A stretch of DNA of 64,000 nucleotides from Blastococcus sp. HT6-4. Its GTDB lineage: Bacteria; Actinomycetota; Actinomycetes; Mycobacteriales; Geodermatophilaceae. The DNA is taken from contig NZ_CP155551.1 of the NCBI RefSeq assembly GCF_039679125.1, positions 248,001 through 312,000 of the forward strand, given 5' to 3'. Below are positions 18,374 to 64,000 of this stretch, one piece after another. The notes under the pieces are model-generated. The model did no database searches. It saw only the letters and a program-made list of their open reading frames with translations, and was not told the origin of the DNA. The translations under genes were made by a program, and so were the position numbers. Numbering within the stretch: position 1 is the first letter of the stretch; each line of letters starts with the position of its first letter.

Positions 18374-19276
18374 TCAGGCGAGGCCGCGGACGGTGCGCAC
18401 GGGCGGCCGGGTGCCCTGGATCGAGGCCACCATGTCCAGCGTCTGCCGGGTGGGCGCGACGTCGTGGGCGCGGAACACCCGGGCGCCCAGCCAGGCGCTG
18501 ACCGCGGTGGCGGCCAGCGTGCCGGTGAGCCGTTCGTCCAGCGGGACGTCGAGGGTCTCGCCGACGAAGTCCTTGTTCGACAGGGCCACCAGCACGGGCC
18601 AGCCGGTGTCCGCGAGCTCGCCCAGCCGGCGGGTGGCCTCGAGCGAGTGCCGGGTGTTCTTACCGAAGTCGTGCCCCGGGTCGACCAGCACCCGGTCGCG
18701 GTCCACACCGGCGGCGACGGCGGCCTCGGCCAGCGCCGTCGTCCGCGTGACGATGTCGGCGACGACGTCGTCGTAGGCCACGCGGTGCGGCCGGGTGCGG
18801 GGCGGCAGCCCCCCGGCGTGCGTGCAGACGATGCCGGCGCCCGCCTCGGCCGCGACGGCGGCGAGCGACGGGTCCACGCCGCCCCAGGCGTCGTTGACGA
18901 CGTCGGCGCCGGCCGCCAGCGCCTCGCGCGCCACCTCCGCCCGCCAGGTGTCGATCGAGATCGGCAGCGCGGGGTGCGCGGCGCGGATCGCGGCCACGAG
19001 GTCGACGGTCCGGCGCACCTCCTCGGTGGGGGAGACCTCCTCGCCGGGCGCGGCCTTCACCCCGCCGACGTCGACCATGTCGGCGCCCTCGGCGACCACC
19101 TGGTCGACCCGCTCGACGGCGGCGGCCAGCTCGTAGGTGGCCCCGCGGTCGTAGAACGAGTCGGGGGTGCGGTTGACGATCGCCATGACGACGAACCGCC
19201 CGTCGGGCACGTCGAGGGCCCCCAGTCGCAGCAACCCGCTCCCCGTCCCATGGTCGTGTGTGGTGGAGTCAGCCAA
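18374..19276 (-). CDS. folP2: FolP2-type dihydropteroate synthase homologue
   Basis: A 300-residue TIM-barrel protein of the dihydropteroate synthase family. The hallmark segment reads VMAIVNRTPDSFYDRGATY instead of the canonical folate-pathway NVTPDSFSDGG. This is the form found in mycobacterial FolP2, which has been reported to lack dihydropteroate synthase activity. VDVGGVKAAPGEEVSP and VLVDPGHDFGKNT give the other barrel loops. The start is taken as TTG 19276, with no clear ribosome-binding site; a downstream start is possible. In mycobacteria folP2 neighbours gpgS and fadD6. Here gpgS lies 39 kb away, while an acyl-CoA synthetase is still close. Confidence 0.85.
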   Translation of the reverse strand: MADSTTHDHGTGSGLLRLGALDVPDGRFVVMAIVNRTPDSFYDRGATYELAAAVERVDQVVAEGADMVDVGGVKAAPGEEVSPTEEVRRTVDLVAAIRAAHPALPISIDTWRAEVAREALAAGADVVNDAWGGVDPSLAAVAAEAGAGIVCTHAGGLPPRTRPHRVAYDDVVADIVTRTTALAEAAVAAGVDRDRVLVDPGHDFGKNTRHSLEATRRLGELADTGWPVLVALSNKDFVGETLDVPLDERLTGTLAATAVSAWLGARVFRAHDVAPTRQTLDMVASIQGTRPPVRTVRGLA

Positions 19277-19304
19277 CCAGACCGTTCACGAGGAGGCAGA
19301 GCAG

Positions 19305-19766
19305 ATGGCGCAGACGACGGCCGAGGGCGTCGAGGGGGTCCAGGGCCTGGTGGGTCAGCACCTGGGCCACAGCGACTGGGTGACGATCACGCAGGAGCAG
19401 GTGAACCAGTTCGCCGAGGCGACCGGTGACCACCAGTGGATCCACGTCGACCCGGAACGGGCGAAGAAGGAGAGCCCGTTCGGCGGGCCGATCGCGCACG
19501 GCTACCTGACGCTGTCACTGCTGCCCGCGCTGATGCCGCAGATCGTCGAGATCACCGGCTTCCGGATGGGCGTCAACTACGGCACGGAGAAGGTGCGCTT
19601 CCCCTCTCCGGTGCCGGTGGGCGCCAAGGTGCGGGCCGGGGCCACCCTCGAGGCGGCGACGCCGTTCGAGGGCGGCGTGCAGATGAACCTCGCCGTCACC
19701 GTGGAGATCGAGGGCGGCAGCAAGCCGGCGATGGTCGCCACCGTGGTCTACCGCCGCTACCTGTAG
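19305..19766 (+). CDS. MaoC-family (R)-hydratase/dehydratase
   Basis: A 153-residue single-hotdog hydratase of the MaoC family. The hydratase motif is FAEATGDHQWIHVDPERA (about 47-64), with catalytic Asp/His, followed by SPFGGPIAHGYLTLSLLPAL and NYGTEKVRFPSPVPVG. It likely hydrates enoyl-CoA to (R)-3-hydroxyacyl-CoA. ATG 19305 has AGGAGG at 19291-19296. It is divergent from folP2 with only 28 bp between the starts. A closely similar paralogue sits at 51389-51847. The stop is TAG, followed by the dispersed palindrome at 19780. Confidence 0.92.
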   Translation: MAQTTAEGVEGVQGLVGQHLGHSDWVTITQEQVNQFAEATGDHQWIHVDPERAKKESPFGGPIAHGYLTLSLLPALMPQIVEITGFRMGVNYGTEKVRFPSPVPVGAKVRAGATLEAATPFEGGVQMNLAVTVEIEGGSKPAMVATVVYRRYL

Positions 19767-48660: not shown

Positions 48661-49791
48661 CTACGCCGGCCACCCGGGGCGCAGGTGCCGGGTGGCGGCC
48701 GCCAGGGTGCGCGCGGTCAGCCGGCCGTCGGCGAGGCCGAGCGCGACGACGTCGTCGAACACCCGCTGGTCGGCGGCGGCGGCACGGAACGCGGCGTCCA
48801 TGAGCACCGGCCATCGGCTGAGGCGGGACGCGGCCGCCGACGAGCGCAGGTGCCGGCCGAGGCGCCGGTCCAGCGCCCGCCGGTAGACCGCCCCAGCCAC
48901 GGCACCGTGCCCGCTGGCGGCGCCGGCCAGCGCACCGGAGAGCACCGCGTAGAAGATCCCCTCCCCGGTGAGGGGGTTGATAAGGGCGGCGGCGTCGCCG
49001 GCCAGCAGCACCCGGCCGTCGGGCTGGTGCGGCCGGCCGGTGCTCAACGGAAGCCGGTGGGCCCTGAGCTGGGAGCCCTCGACGCCGGGCAGCAGCCGCT
49101 GCAGGCCCTCGAGCAGGCCCGCGCGGGTGGCTCCTCCCGACACCAGCTCGCCGTAGCCGATGTTCGCCCGCCCGTCACCCAGGGGGAACGACCACGCGTA
49201 GGCCGGCCAGCGCTGCTCGGTCGTGGTGATCACCTGGACCCCGCGCCGGCCGGGCAGCTCCGCCCCGTAGCCGCGGATCGCCACGGCCAGCTGGTCGGCA
49301 CGGTTGCGGCCGGCGCCCACCGCCCGGCGGACGACGGACTCCGCGCCGTCGGCGGCGATCAGCACGGCGGCCGTGACGGAACCGTCCACCTCCACGGCGT
49401 CGGGGTGGACGGTCACCTGCCGGACGACGTGCCGGCGCAGGACGGCCCCGGCGTCCTGGGCGGCGGCGATCAGCCGCGCGTCCAGCACGGTCCGGGGGAT
49501 CACGTGGGAGGGGCGGGCGGTGTCCCGCTCGACCGTCGTCCCGCGCGGGGAGGTCAGCCGCAGCCGGGACACGGCCGGGTGACCGTCGGTGACCGCGACC
49601 GGGTCGATCCCGAGGACGGCGAGGACGTCGAGCGCCTCGGCCGCGACGCCGTCGCCGCACACCTTGTCGCGGGGGAAGTCGACCCGGTCGAGCACGAGCA
49701 CGCGGGCCGACGGGTCGGCCCGGCGCGCGGCCAGGGCGCTCGCGGCGCCCGCCGGCCCCCCTCCGACGACGACGACGTCCCAGTGCTCCAC
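48661..49791 (-). CDS. Geranylgeranyl reductase-family flavoprotein (MenJ-like)
   Basis: A 376-residue FAD oxidoreductase. The dinucleotide fold is VVVVGGGPAGAASALAAR at the N-terminus. The DRVDFPRDKVCGDGV block and VLLAGDAAALINPLTGEGI (about 275) are family signatures. Relatives reduce isoprenoid chains, including MenJ, which saturates the beta-isoprene of menaquinone. A menaquinone gene (menB) lies 3.8 kb away, which supports but does not prove that role. GTG 49791. The stop is TAG. Confidence 0.85.
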   Translation of the reverse strand: MEHWDVVVVGGGPAGAASALAARRADPSARVLVLDRVDFPRDKVCGDGVAAEALDVLAVLGIDPVAVTDGHPAVSRLRLTSPRGTTVERDTARPSHVIPRTVLDARLIAAAQDAGAVLRRHVVRQVTVHPDAVEVDGSVTAAVLIAADGAESVVRRAVGAGRNRADQLAVAIRGYGAELPGRRGVQVITTTEQRWPAYAWSFPLGDGRANIGYGELVSGGATRAGLLEGLQRLLPGVEGSQLRAHRLPLSTGRPHQPDGRVLLAGDAAALINPLTGEGIFYAVLSGALAGAASGHGAVAGAVYRRALDRRLGRHLRSSAAASRLSRWPVLMDAAFRAAAADQRVFDDVVALGLADGRLTARTLAAATRHLRPGWPA

Positions 49792-52002: not shown

Positions 52003-52485
52003 GTGTTCGCCTCGACCGACGGCTGGACCGCCTGCAGCCAGGGGCACCGCCACTGGGGGAAGGCCGGTGCGGCGGGCCTGCTGATCCACCGCGACGGCCC
52101 CGACGGTCCCGAGCTCCTGCTGCAGCACCGCGCGTGGTGGTCGCACCACGGCGGCACCTGGGGGACGCCGGGCGGCGCGCTGCACCGGGGGGAGCCGCCG
52201 GAGATCGGGGCGCTCCGGGAGGTCGGGGAGGAGCTCGGGCTCGCCGCCGGCGACCTCGTGCTCGGCGCGCGGTCGGTCGACGACCACGGGGGATGGGCGT
52301 ACACGACCGTGCTGGCGCGCCCGGCCCGTTCCATCGAGGCAGGCGACCTCCGTCTCGACGGCGAGAGCGACGGCGTGGCGTGGGTGTCGCTGGCGGCGAT
52401 CGACGCGGTGCCGCTGCATCCGGGGCTCGCCGCCTCGCTGGACCGGTTGCGGCCTCTTCTCCGGGGAGCCGGCGCCGCGGGCTAG
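52003..52485 (+). CDS. NUDIX hydrolase
   Basis: A 160-residue pyrophosphohydrolase. The Nudix box GGALHRGEPPEIGALREVGEELGL (about residues 56-79) contains the GX5EX7REUXEEXGU pattern with all metal-binding glutamates. TWGTPGGAL precedes it. It may sanitise nucleotides or hydrolyse dinucleotide derivatives. GTG 52003 follows a TTGACT-like sequence. The stop is TAG, 10 bp before menB, so the two are probably co-transcribed. Confidence 0.9.
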   Translation: MFASTDGWTACSQGHRHWGKAGAAGLLIHRDGPDGPELLLQHRAWWSHHGGTWGTPGGALHRGEPPEIGALREVGEELGLAAGDLVLGARSVDDHGGWAYTTVLARPARSIEAGDLRLDGESDGVAWVSLAAIDAVPLHPGLAASLDRLRPLLRGAGAAG

Positions 52486-57412: not shown

Positions 57413-58246
57413 CTACCCCGTGTGCGGGTAGCGGCCGAGCCGGCGGAGGGCCTCGTCGGGGCGGTCGGTGATGAGGGCGTCGACGCCCAGGCCGATCAGG
57501 TAGTCGATGTCCGCGGGGGAGTTCGCCGTCCAGACGTGCACCTCCTTGCCGGCCGCGTGCGCCTGCGCCACGTAGCCCGGGTCGGCCCGCAGCAGGAACA
57601 CCCCGGGGCCGACGGCGCTCATCGAGCCCGCCAGCAGGTCGGTGCGCACCGGCCGCAGCCGCTTGCCGATGAGCTGCACGGTCGGCACTCCCGGCGCCAG
57701 TGCGGAGACCCGGCGCACTGCCAGCTGGGAGAAGCTCATCACCCGGACCGCCGGCCGGCCGGCCCACTGGGCGGCCCGGTCGCCCTGGACCAGGCCGTAG
57801 TGGCGCAGCGAGCGCACCAGCGCCTCCTCGACGCGCCCGGTGTGCCGGGTCGGGTGCTTGGTCTCGATGGCCAGCCGGACGCTGCCGGGCGTCGAGGTCG
57901 CGTACTCGAGCAGCCGGTCGAGGGTGAGCACGCGGCCGTCCTCGATATCGGGCTCGTCGGTGACTGCGGTGATCTCGTCGTCCCGCCAGCGACGGGCTCG
58001 GCGCCGGGCGCCGAACCGGAACTCCTCCAGCTCCTGGAGGCGCAGCGCCGAGACGACGCCGCGGCCGTCGGAGGTATGCCTGACCCTGCGGTCGTGCACG
58101 CAGACCAGGACGCCGTCGCGGGTCATGCGGACGTCGCACTCGACCGCGTCGGCGCCGACGACCGTGGCGTGCCGGTAGGCGGCGAGGGTGTGCTCCGGTG
58201 CCTCGGCGGTGGCTCCGCGGTGGGCGACGACCTCGGGAGCGGTCAC
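57413..58246 (-). CDS. Glycerophosphodiester phosphodiesterase
   Basis: A 277-residue GDPD-family TIM barrel that hydrolyses glycerophosphodiesters to glycerol-3-phosphate and an alcohol. The active-site motifs are VAHRGATAEAPEHTL (His/Arg), then VECDVRMTRDG (Glu/Asp) and VHD. LAIETKHP supplies a further metal ligand. No signal peptide is visible, so it is cytosolic. The start is GTG 58246. The stop is TAG. It is convergent with the HAD phosphatase. Confidence 0.93.
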   Translation of the reverse strand: MTAPEVVAHRGATAEAPEHTLAAYRHATVVGADAVECDVRMTRDGVLVCVHDRRVRHTSDGRGVVSALRLQELEEFRFGARRRARRWRDDEITAVTDEPDIEDGRVLTLDRLLEYATSTPGSVRLAIETKHPTRHTGRVEEALVRSLRHYGLVQGDRAAQWAGRPAVRVMSFSQLAVRRVSALAPGVPTVQLIGKRLRPVRTDLLAGSMSAVGPGVFLLRADPGYVAQAHAAGKEVHVWTANSPADIDYLIGLGVDALITDRPDEALRRLGRYPHTG

Positions 58247-58323: not shown

Positions 58324-59334
58324 CTAGACCGCCAGCCGGGCGCGGTACTCCGGGACGGTCACCATCGGCGGCCGCTCGTCGACGGCGACGGCGCTGCTGC
58401 GCGGCACGAACCCCGCGCCGTCCTGCCGGAACTGGGTGAGCAGCCCGCTCGGCTGCCGCGCGCAGGCCGCCCGCGCCAGCACGGTGGCCACCACCTGCCC
58501 GGCCATCTCGCCCAGCGCCTCGACGCTCTGCGACGTGTGCCGGCGCTCGCCGAGATCGACCTGGGCCAGCGAGCCGAGACCGCCCTGCCGCAGCAGGTCG
58601 ACAAGCAGGCCCACCTCGACGCCGTAGGAGGAGACGAAGGACACCCGCTCCAGCGCCGACCGCCGTCCGGCGTACTCGCCGCCGAGGGGTTGCACGAAGC
58701 CGGCGAGCTCGGGCCACAGCGCGTTCAGCAGCGGGCGGGCGGTCAGCTCGGTCACCCGGCCCCCGCCTGCGGGCACCACGGCGCCGCCGACCTCCAGCGG
58801 GCGGGTGTAGCAACCCTTCACGTAGTGCACCTGCGGGTCGGTGAGCAGCGGGCCGAGCAGCCCGGGTACGTAGTGGCCGACGTCGCCGAGCAGGTCGGCG
58901 TCGAGGAAGACGACGAGGTCGCCGGTCGTCGCGGCCAGCGACTTCCACAGCGCCTCGCCCTTGCCGCGACGGGTGCCGACCCCGGGCAGCACCTCGGTGG
59001 TCGCGACCACCTCCGCGCCGGCCGCGCGGGCGACGGCGGCGGTCGCGTCGGTGCTGTCGGAGTCGACGACGACGAGCTCGTCGACCAGTGGGACGCCGCG
59101 CACCCAGCGGTCGCGCACGTCGGCGACGAGGCCGCCGACGGTGGACTCCTCGTTGCGGGCCGGCAGGACGACGCTGATCCGGTGGCCACCGCGGCGCTTG
59201 GCGTCCAGGAGGGCGGCGGCGTCGATCGCGGCCAGGGAGCGGGCCGTGGTGGTGCGCTGCTCGAACCAGGCGCGGGCGTCGGGTCTCACCGCCTCACTGT
59301 CGGCCAGGCCGGCCGCCCGCGCCAGGCCGGGCAC
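58324..59334 (-). CDS. gpgS: Glucosyl-3-phosphoglycerate synthase
   Basis: A 336-residue GT81-type glycosyltransferase that joins UDP-glucose to 3-phosphoglycerate, the first step to glucosylglycerate and methylglucose lipopolysaccharide. ISVVLPARNEESTV (about 53) begins the GT-A fold and VVFLDADLLG is the DxD-like motif. GKGEALWKSLAATTGD, ATGGGRVTELxARPLL-like PAGGGRVTELTARPLL, and QPLGGEYAGRR match the family. The start is GTG 59334; GTG 59289 is a possible alternative. The stop is TAG. In mycobacteria gpgS follows folP2; here they are apart. Confidence 0.95.
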   Translation of the reverse strand: MPGLARAAGLADSEAVRPDARAWFEQRTTTARSLAAIDAAALLDAKRRGGHRISVVLPARNEESTVGGLVADVRDRWVRGVPLVDELVVVDSDSTDATAAVARAAGAEVVATTEVLPGVGTRRGKGEALWKSLAATTGDLVVFLDADLLGDVGHYVPGLLGPLLTDPQVHYVKGCYTRPLEVGGAVVPAGGGRVTELTARPLLNALWPELAGFVQPLGGEYAGRRSALERVSFVSSYGVEVGLLVDLLRQGGLGSLAQVDLGERRHTSQSVEALGEMAGQVVATVLARAACARQPSGLLTQFRQDGAGFVPRSSAVAVDERPPMVTVPEYRARLAV

Positions 59335-62494: not shown

Positions 62495-62755
62495 ATGGTC
62501 CGTCGGTTGTGCGCCCTGGTCGTCGCGGCCGTCGTCTCGGGCTTCGCCCTCCTCCTGATCACCGGCGACTACGAGAACGACGGTCCGGTCCTGGTCGCCG
62601 TGGGCGGTGGCCACGGCGTGCACGCCGGCGACCTCTTCGTCCTGGCGGGGTGGGCCGCGGCGGTGACGGCCCTGTGGGCACTGGTCGCGCTGCCCGCGCG
62701 GCGCCCGGGCCGGGGAGACGCACCCGACGGTGGGCCGGCCCGCGGACGGTCCTGA
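62495..62755 (+). CDS. Small hypothetical membrane protein (two TM)
   Basis: An 86-residue protein with TM1 at about 4-22 (RLCALVVAAVVSGFALLLI), a short acidic loop, and TM2 at about 45-66 (LFVLAGWAAAVTALWALVAL). A hydrophilic, Gly/Arg-rich tail follows. No family is recognised. ATG 62495. It lies 49 bp upstream of the formate dehydrogenase gene and may be part of the same unit. Confidence 0.6.
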   Translation: MVRRLCALVVAAVVSGFALLLITGDYENDGPVLVAVGGGHGVHAGDLFVLAGWAAAVTALWALVALPARRPGRGDAPDGGPARGRS

Positions 62756-62804
62756 TCCGGATGGTGGGTCCGTCGACGCGCCGCGTCGGGCGGCGGGTGG
62801 CAGA

Positions 62805-64000
62805 GTGACGCGCGTGAAGACCTGGCTCGAGAGCTGGCCGGTGTACCGGCAGCTGACCGGCTCGGACCCGCTGGGGCGCGGCAGGGCGGCGCGCAGCAAG
62901 GCGACCGAGGCCGTCGTGGCCCGCACCGCGACCGCGGACCGGGTGGTGAAGAGCGTCTGCCCGTTCTGCGCGGTGGGCTGCGCCCAGGACGTCTACGTGA
63001 AGGACGAGAAGATCGTCCAGATCGAGGGCAACCCGGACTCGCCGATCAACCGCGGCCGGCTGTGCCCCAAGGGCAGCGCCAGCAAGCAGCTGGTCACCAG
63101 CCCGTCCCGGGTCACCACGGTGAAGTACCGCCGTCCGTTCGGGACGGAGTGGGAGGACCTCGAGCTCGACACGGCGATGGAGATGATCGCCGACCGCGTC
63201 CTCGAGGCCCGCCGCAAGGGCTGGCAGGACCGCGACGACGAGGGCCGGAAGCTCGGCCGGACCATGGGGATAGCGAGCCTCGGAGGGGCGACCCTCGACA
63301 ACGAGGAGAACTACCTCATGAAGAAGCTCTACAGCGCCATGGGCGCGATCCAGATCGAGAACCAGGCCCGCATATAGCACTCCGCGACGGTGCCCGGTCT
63401 GGGCGCCTCGTTCGGTCGTGGCGGTGCCACGAACACCCAGCAGGACCTCGCGAACGCCGATTGCATCGTCATCGAGGGTTCCAACATGGCCGAGTGCCAC
63501 CCGGTGGGCTTCCAGTGGGTCACCGAGGCCAAGGCCCGCGGCGCGAAGGTCATCCACATCGACCCGCGGTTCACCCGCACCAGCGCGATCGCCGACCTGC
63601 ACGTCCCGCTGCGCATCGGCACCGACATCGCGTTCCTCGGCGGGCTCATCAACCACGTGCTGAGCAACGACCTGTACTTCAAGGAGTACGTGGTCGCCTA
63701 CACGAACGCCGCCGCCCTGGTCGGTGAGGAGTTCGTCGACTCCGACGACCTCGACGGGCTGTTCTCCGGCTTCGACCCCGAGACCGGCACCTACGACGAG
63801 ACCAGCTGGCAGTACGAGCCGGACGAGCCGCCGCACTCCGGTGCCGACGATCCGGCCGAGGCCGCCGAGCAGGACCGCTCCGACGACCTCCCCGCCGTCC
63901 AGGAGTCCGACCGCGCCCAGGCGGCCGGCAGCGGCGGCCCCCCGATCCCGGCCAAGCCGAAGCGGGACGAGACGCTGCAGCACCCGCGCACGGTGTTCCA
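62805..64000 (+). CDS. fdoG: Formate dehydrogenase alpha subunit with in-frame TAG at the selenocysteine position (incomplete at window end)
   Basis: The molybdopterin-dependent catalytic subunit of formate dehydrogenase, FdoG/FdnG class, truncated by the window edge. The 4Fe-4S motif is CPFCAVGC (about 51) with its last Cys in GRLCPKG. Codon 191 (63375-63377) is TAG, exactly where homologues have Sec or Cys: upstream ENQARI, downstream HSATVPGLGASFGRGG, as in the E. coli QARVUHGPTV region. The same frame stays open to 64000 with family sequence (SNMAECHPVGFQWV, IDPRFTRTSAIADLHVP). A SECIS hairpin follows. Geodermatophilaceae have been reported to use UAG for selenocysteine. No Tat signal is seen, so it is probably cytosolic. 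GTG 62805 or 62814 starts it. Confidence 0.92.
63375..63406 (+). promoter_or_regulatory. UAG Sec codon and bacterial SECIS hairpin
   Basis: After TAG (63375-63377) there are 18 nt, then the loop GGTCT (63396-63400). In E. coli fdhF the same GGUCU follows UGA by 18 nt. The stem is GTGCCC (63390-63395) with GGGCGC (63401-63406), six pairs including one U-G. This is the feature SelB recognises to deliver Sec-tRNA. Confidence 0.9.

Follow-up and report, generated by a model that had tools for sequence, protein, structure and literature searches.

How is the alpha subunit of formate dehydrogenase made in the soil actinobacterium Blastococcus sp. HT6-4, given that the frame of its gene, fdhA1, contains a TAG codon? 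The locus lies at the end of the window, that is the whole stretch of 64,000 nucleotides that was analysed, and the source genome consists of a single contig of 4,297,415 bases (4.30 Mb). Annotation with the standard code cuts this and related Sec genes at TAG, here leaving a truncated ORF (Table 1). Both before and behind the TAG the frame is open, and the surrounding residues read R-I-U-H-S, which we take to be the catalytic Sec/Cys position of FdhA. The complete gene from the GTG at 62805 (genome C1:310805-314107; locus L013:3805-7107) yields 1100 residues when read through the TAG, and this product matches the NCBIfam formate dehydrogenase model NF041513 over residues 7-1074 with 1911.7 bits (cut-off 1400). 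The initial annotation had placed an amber codon at the Sec/Cys position of an FdoG-type enzyme, with the same frame and its homology continuing behind it, and both statements hold. Its codon number, 191, is right if translation starts at the GTG at 62805; this start is possible, but the GTG at 62814 is probably the likelier one, because the matching GTG of two relatives, G030 and G060, is immediately preceded by an in-frame TAG. Counted from 62814, the TAG is codon (and residue) 188. The additional TAG of G030 and G060 was also considered as a second Sec codon, which is ruled out by its place directly before the GTG start.

At the same codon of the 112 compared fdhA loci (the best matches among the matches listed, some being one gene entered twice), TAG was found in 70 and TGA in 42, and a sense codon in none; the exact position of the TAG was verified for these loci. 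The TAG at 63375 is therefore not due to chance or to a sequencing error. A pseudogene, or an error in the sequence, would account for a frame that is interrupted by a stop codon, but it is extremely improbable in view of the same TAG in 70 family loci (among the matches listed), the open frame downstream, the covarying hairpin described below and the assembly of the genome in a single contig.

Table 1. Positions of the features described in the text. Plain ranges are window positions; C1 is the contig of the source genome.
Feature	Position	Strand	Basis or remark
fdhA1, Sec formate dehydrogenase alpha subunit (predicted)	62814..64000, past the window end to C1:314107	+	NF041513
Truncated 215-aa ORF, standard-code reading	62730..63377	+	
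ATA isoleucine codon directly 5' of the Sec codon	63372..63374	+	70/70 TAG loci (among matches listed)
In-frame TAG	63375..63377	+	Inferred Sec codon, interrupts fdhA1
Bacterial SECIS upper hairpin, 7 bp, apical loop GGUCU at 63396-63400	63389..63407	+	Fold and alignment
tRNASec, anticodon CUA	C1:1309686-1309777		RF01852, 65.7 bits, gathering 47
MaoC-like (PF01575) gene, stop TAG	19167..19766	+	Pfam
FAD-binding protein (PF01494) gene, stop TAG	48661..49791	-	Pfam
NUDIX protein (PF00293) gene, stop TAG	52003..52485	+	Pfam
GDPD-family (PF03009) gene, stop TAG	57413..58246	-	Pfam
Family 2 glycosyltransferase (PF00535) gene, stop TAG	58324..59334	-	Pfam
LHW52908 tRNASec-UCA	Contig C17, L080:1169-1263	-	81.8 bits, G73
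LHW52908 AhpD-like CxxU gene, TGA-interrupted	Contig C17, L080:1579-2157	+	

The sequence downstream of the TAG folds into a bacterial SECIS hairpin, the GGUCU loop of which begins 18 nt past the codon. The single-sequence fold (−18.7 kcal/mol, z −1.9) is weak on its own, because 11 of 200 shuffles were equally good. The alignment of 26 distinct TAG-gene sequences was more informative: the 7-bp upper stem was paired in 99.5% of 182 cells, and 18 cells had changed on both sides, with a covariation score of 0.293, counts that are inflated by kinship among the 26 rows. Each of these three values was reached by 0 of 500 shuffles; the numbers of pairs changed on both sides and of further pair types were ordinary (reached by 102 and 45 of 500 shuffles, respectively). 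When the partner column was slid, at most 59.9% of the cells were paired, versus 99.5% in place. The stem covaries at synonymous positions: a Val codon and a Gly codon vary in concert at their third bases (C-G, G-U, G-C and U-A), and these two bases are paired in 26/26 distinct TAG sequences. Lower pairs, which extend the hairpin to 63384-63411, are poorly kept. Overall, the SECIS hairpin is real, and the alignment rather than the single fold decides this; the loop and its 18-nt spacing are as initially annotated.

A single tRNASec with a CUA anticodon was found in the source genome (Table 1), and no second one remained at E 1e-9. The other RF01852 match above the cut-off is an ordinary tRNA-Ser (TGA) within the window, and seven further matches in the whole genome fell below it. 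The tRNASec-CUA sits between selD, which is divergent, and selA-selB; the models TIGR00474 (selA), TIGR00475 (selB) and TIGR00476 (selD) gave 423.3, 288.2 and 387.8 bits (cut-offs 267.9, 242.25 and 125). A genome search for this tRNA and these three genes had been suggested in the initial annotation, and all of them are present, in one cluster, so that the UAG-Sec claim withstood this genome-based test. ARAGORN labels the CUA tRNA as tRNA-Pyl, and a table of a 2013 Pyl survey has Geodermatophilus obscurus as a candidate, with the entry 'No UAG-anticodon' (PMC3639795), both of which would suit a UAG read as pyrrolysine. We consider this scarcely credible: the tRNA scores 65.7 bits against the tRNASec family and is part of the selD-selC-selA-selB cluster, the same codon is TGA in 42 of the 112 homologous loci (among the matches listed), and the source genome has no PylS above the cut-off (best match 22.7 bits, cut-off 178.15). 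Comparably weak PylS matches occurred in 13 of 14 control genomes.

The UAG is thus very probably read as Sec in the fdhA1 formate dehydrogenase. As far as can be judged from sequence, the explanation as a whole is almost certainly correct, namely that fdhA1 is a selenoprotein gene with UAG instead of UGA as the Sec codon, read by means of the tRNASec-CUA, the sel genes and the hairpin. By analogy with the known E. coli pathway, SerRS would charge the tRNASec-CUA with serine, and SelA would turn the Ser into Sec using selenophosphate from SelD. SelB would then bind both the Sec-tRNASec and the hairpin 18 nt past the codon and bring the tRNA to the UAG, where its delivery would compete with release factor 1, rather than with RF2 as at UGA. 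UAG codons without such a hairpin would still act as stops.

Three further TAG selenoprotein genes were found in the source genome by a search limited to their families. The first, fdhA2, is 71% identical and has one internal TAG, with the same ATA-TAG-CAC sequence and GGUCU loop. The second is an AhpC-like gene with the motif W-U-P-Y-C (PF00578, 42.5 bits, cut-off 26), in which a hairpin was folded after the TAG (a fold without shuffle control), and the third belongs to the UGSC family (NF041046, 139 bits, cut-off 125). That all four Sec genes found in this genome use TAG could mean that UAG has been reassigned to Sec genome-wide and is no longer a stop, in line with the 'genuine codon reassignment' of the initial annotation. 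This is very unlikely, as UAG terminates fdhB, the gene after fdhA1, and five Pfam-matched ORFs of the window. A coding-bias screen of window ORFs of at least 100 aa gave 45 ORFs, ending in TGA (37), TAG (8) or TAA (0). All five TAG-ended ORFs that were given to Pfam scored above the cut-off (Table 1), and of the remaining three one is fdhA itself and two are doubtful. In the AhpC-like gene, an internal TAG is followed 193 codons on by a terminal TAG, an arrangement also seen in G008, and the relative in G007 has TGA at the position of the terminal TAG; one codon therefore has two meanings in one message, which are presumably told apart by the hairpin. Since UAG ends fdhB, the five window ORFs and the AhpC-like gene itself, its use is context-dependent recoding to Sec and not reassignment, and this part of the initial annotation has to be withdrawn.

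The codon directly 5' of the Sec codon is ATA in fdhA1 and in every TAG locus (Table 1). In the 42 TGA loci (among the matches listed) the preceding codon is ATT (35), ATA (4) or GTT (3). ATA and ATT together make up only 5% of the Ile codons near the site in TAG loci and 4% in TGA loci; because they are rare among Ile codons yet prevail at the site, an A or U just before the fdhA Sec codon looks selected. ATA was also considered as a general rule for UAG decoding and rejected, as AhpC-like genes have TGG and UGSC genes GAT or GAC at this place. ATA before UAG thus holds only for fdhA, and shared descent may account for it, the 70 loci being one clade.

The distribution of the system was assessed in 112 Geodermatophilaceae genomes. 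An FdhA match at E 1e-60 was found in 101 of them and a tRNASec in 108; a pattern for CTA-anticodon tRNASec (one mismatch allowed) matched in 101, and all matched letters were CTA. No tRNASec was found in G067, G071, G097 and G098, four drafts of 72-82% completeness. All listed FdhA rows that cover the site have TAG, the draft row G098 also having TGA, and G030 and G060 the second TAG discussed above. ARAGORN, run on 30 tRNA loci of the family, gave CTA for 22 and TCA for eight; seven of the latter come from the genera g5, g6 and g7 and one is an extra locus in G058 (Geodermatophilus sp. LHW52908). A UCA tRNASec and selA are kept in seven genomes of three genera (G066, G068, G069, G070, G072, G073 and G074). 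The search for selenoprotein genes in these genera found none: the nine g5-g7 genomes were without an FdhA match at E 1e-60; UGSC matches were present in two of the seven g5-g7 genomes given, without a stop, and the AhpC matches from these genera (four genomes given) had no internal stop. Among 394 genomes of the class, a strict pattern for tRNASec-CUA, which divergent forms may escape, matched only two, both of the same genus as the source genome and the sole family members in that set.

A quick maximum-likelihood tree was built from 110 FdhA proteins (midpoint-rooted for drawing); one branch with an SH-aLRT of 100 split 69 TAG rows from 41 TGA rows. The TAG side includes both paralogue clades, and its named rows are Geodermatophilaceae, save one labelled 'Frankiales bacterium'. 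The SelA tree (midpoint-rooted; 13 rows, from 4 CUA and 7 UCA genomes of the family plus 2 plasmid outgroup sequences) had the four CUA rows on one side of a branch with support 100/99. A change of the tRNASec anticodon in place would be the simplest reading, because the UCA tRNASec of G070 (g6) and G073 (g7) differ from the CUA tRNASec of the source genome at only 12 and 10 of 92 positions (80/92 and 82/92 identical). A single switch from UGA/UCA to UAG/CUA would suffice to explain the compared relatives; most simply, the fdhA codon and the anticodon would have changed once each, within the Geodermatophilaceae, from an ancestral UGA/UCA. Going from UCA to CUA takes two base changes, conceivably by way of UUA, an anticodon that would read both UAA and UAG. 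With UCA sister genera at hand and a one-branch switch in each tree, it becomes possible to test in what order the steps came: tRNA before gene, gene before tRNA, or by way of a two-tRNA stage.

A few genomes of the family show peculiarities of their own. As a point against the explanation given for fdhA1, the tRNASec-CUA is kept in G079, yet both fdhA copies (L075 = C4:1769-2885 and L076 = C12:814503-815451) are without the segment that holds the TAG and the hairpin, and their frame is broken at this place; the copies share the right break point and differ in the left one, and the loss may be real or an assembly artefact. The drafts G036 (C25:205-296 and C168:20822-20913) and G095 (C376 and C481) each matched the CUA tRNASec pattern twice. 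In G087, two UGSC copies carry TGC (Cys), at C1:2917496-2917930 and 2912838-2913275, and a third match carries TAG.

LHW52908 has a native set of tRNASec-CUA with selA, selB and selD, an fdhA with TAG and a UGSC gene with TAG. Its contig C17 additionally carries a tRNASec-UCA and, at a distance of about 0.3 kb, an AhpD-like gene (Table 1). Aligned with the CUA tRNASec of the source genome, this tRNA agrees with it at only 66 of 95 positions. In the AhpD-like ORF, codon 98 of 192 is TGA and lies within the motif N-R-C-F-Y-U-M-E-S-H; the ORF matches Pfam CMD (28.1 bits, cut-off 23) and, across the TGA, the peroxidase-related enzymes of TIGR01926 (112.6 bits, cut-off 81.8); the match to the NCBIfam AhpD-related (seleno)protein family (CFYUT) was 51.7 bits, below the cut-off of 175. 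The hairpin after its TGA does not stand out from chance (z −0.9; equalled by 34 of 200 mononucleotide shuffles). A crude SECIS rule gave nine hits on C17, and of the two given to Pfam only the AhpD-like gene was above the cut-off. The G+C content of the contig is 0.64 in the first 6 kb, 0.72 in the next 12 kb and 0.76 in the rest, and transposase-like genes lie near the tRNA-gene pair. Bases 9001-12000 of C17 match pieces in 8/8 other genomes given of the genus Geodermatophilus (g3) and in a single g2 genome, which assigns the contig to that group, at least in this region; there was no match to these bases in the source genome. The contig end may be misjoined. Among 394 genomes of the class, LHW52908 itself was the only one with the AhpD-like gene at E 1e-25, and the gene had no match among plasmids at 1e-20 or among viral contigs.

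Judged from these features, the second tRNASec of LHW52908 looks foreign. Tentatively, LHW52908 might use both codons, UAG via its native tRNASec-CUA (fdhA and UGSC) and UGA via a horizontally acquired tRNASec-UCA (the AhpD-like gene), both served by the one selA copy found; we regard this as possible but somewhat doubtful. If true, a mobile selenoprotein gene could pass between hosts with different Sec codons by bringing the matching tRNA along. Two or more G73 tRNASec predictions are given for 151 genomes in PMC5330540, and tRNASec species with other anticodons are likewise known. No description of UAG and UGA as Sec codons in one bacterium was found in the literature searched, a scope that leaves out the full text of Mukai 2016, so that newness is not shown. 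As a separate observation, selB-selA-selC(UCA)-selD-fdh clusters lie on a plasmid from Arthrobacter sp. YA7-1, typed as conjugative (L183:837-8115), and on one from Tsukamurella tyrosinosolvens (L184:900-8099), and thus Sec genes can travel by plasmid in actinobacteria.

UAG-Sec with a tRNASec-CUA in Geodermatophilaceae was reportedly described by Mukai et al. in 2016 (Angew. Chem.), and Sec insertion has reportedly been shown by others for relatives. Overall, UAG-Sec in this family is real and already published, and what the present analysis adds is the family-wide map of the switch and the two-tRNA candidate LHW52908. The latter may be an extant example of the two-tRNA state, although its second tRNA seems foreign. 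Which codon means Sec depends on the tRNA anticodon together with the mRNA hairpin and not on the codon itself. In Santesmasses et al. 2017 (PMC5330540), UAG-Sec with tRNASec-CUA is reported for Geodermatophilaceae, Blastococcus included, with FDH, a UGSC-motif protein and AhpC as the genes, which agrees with the family and the earlier description named in the initial annotation. The system described here has the same tRNASec-CUA, the same three kinds of TAG gene and the same family; three such genomes are given there, whereas 112 genomes of the family were searched here, and UCA sister genera and a two-tRNA genome were found. Pyrrolysine decoding likewise has UAG read by a CUA tRNA; unlike in that system, there is no PylS above the cut-off here, and the tRNA, which lies next to sel genes, is a tRNASec. 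The UGA-Sec formate dehydrogenases of Pseudonocardia, Amycolatopsis, Streptomyces and further actinobacteria are the same enzyme, with the same Sec position and hairpin spacing, and the loop is GGUCU in 23 of their 28 distinct sequences (among the matches listed); they differ in the codon, which is TGA after ATT in 35 of 42 loci (among the matches listed), whereas the source genome has ATA-TAG.
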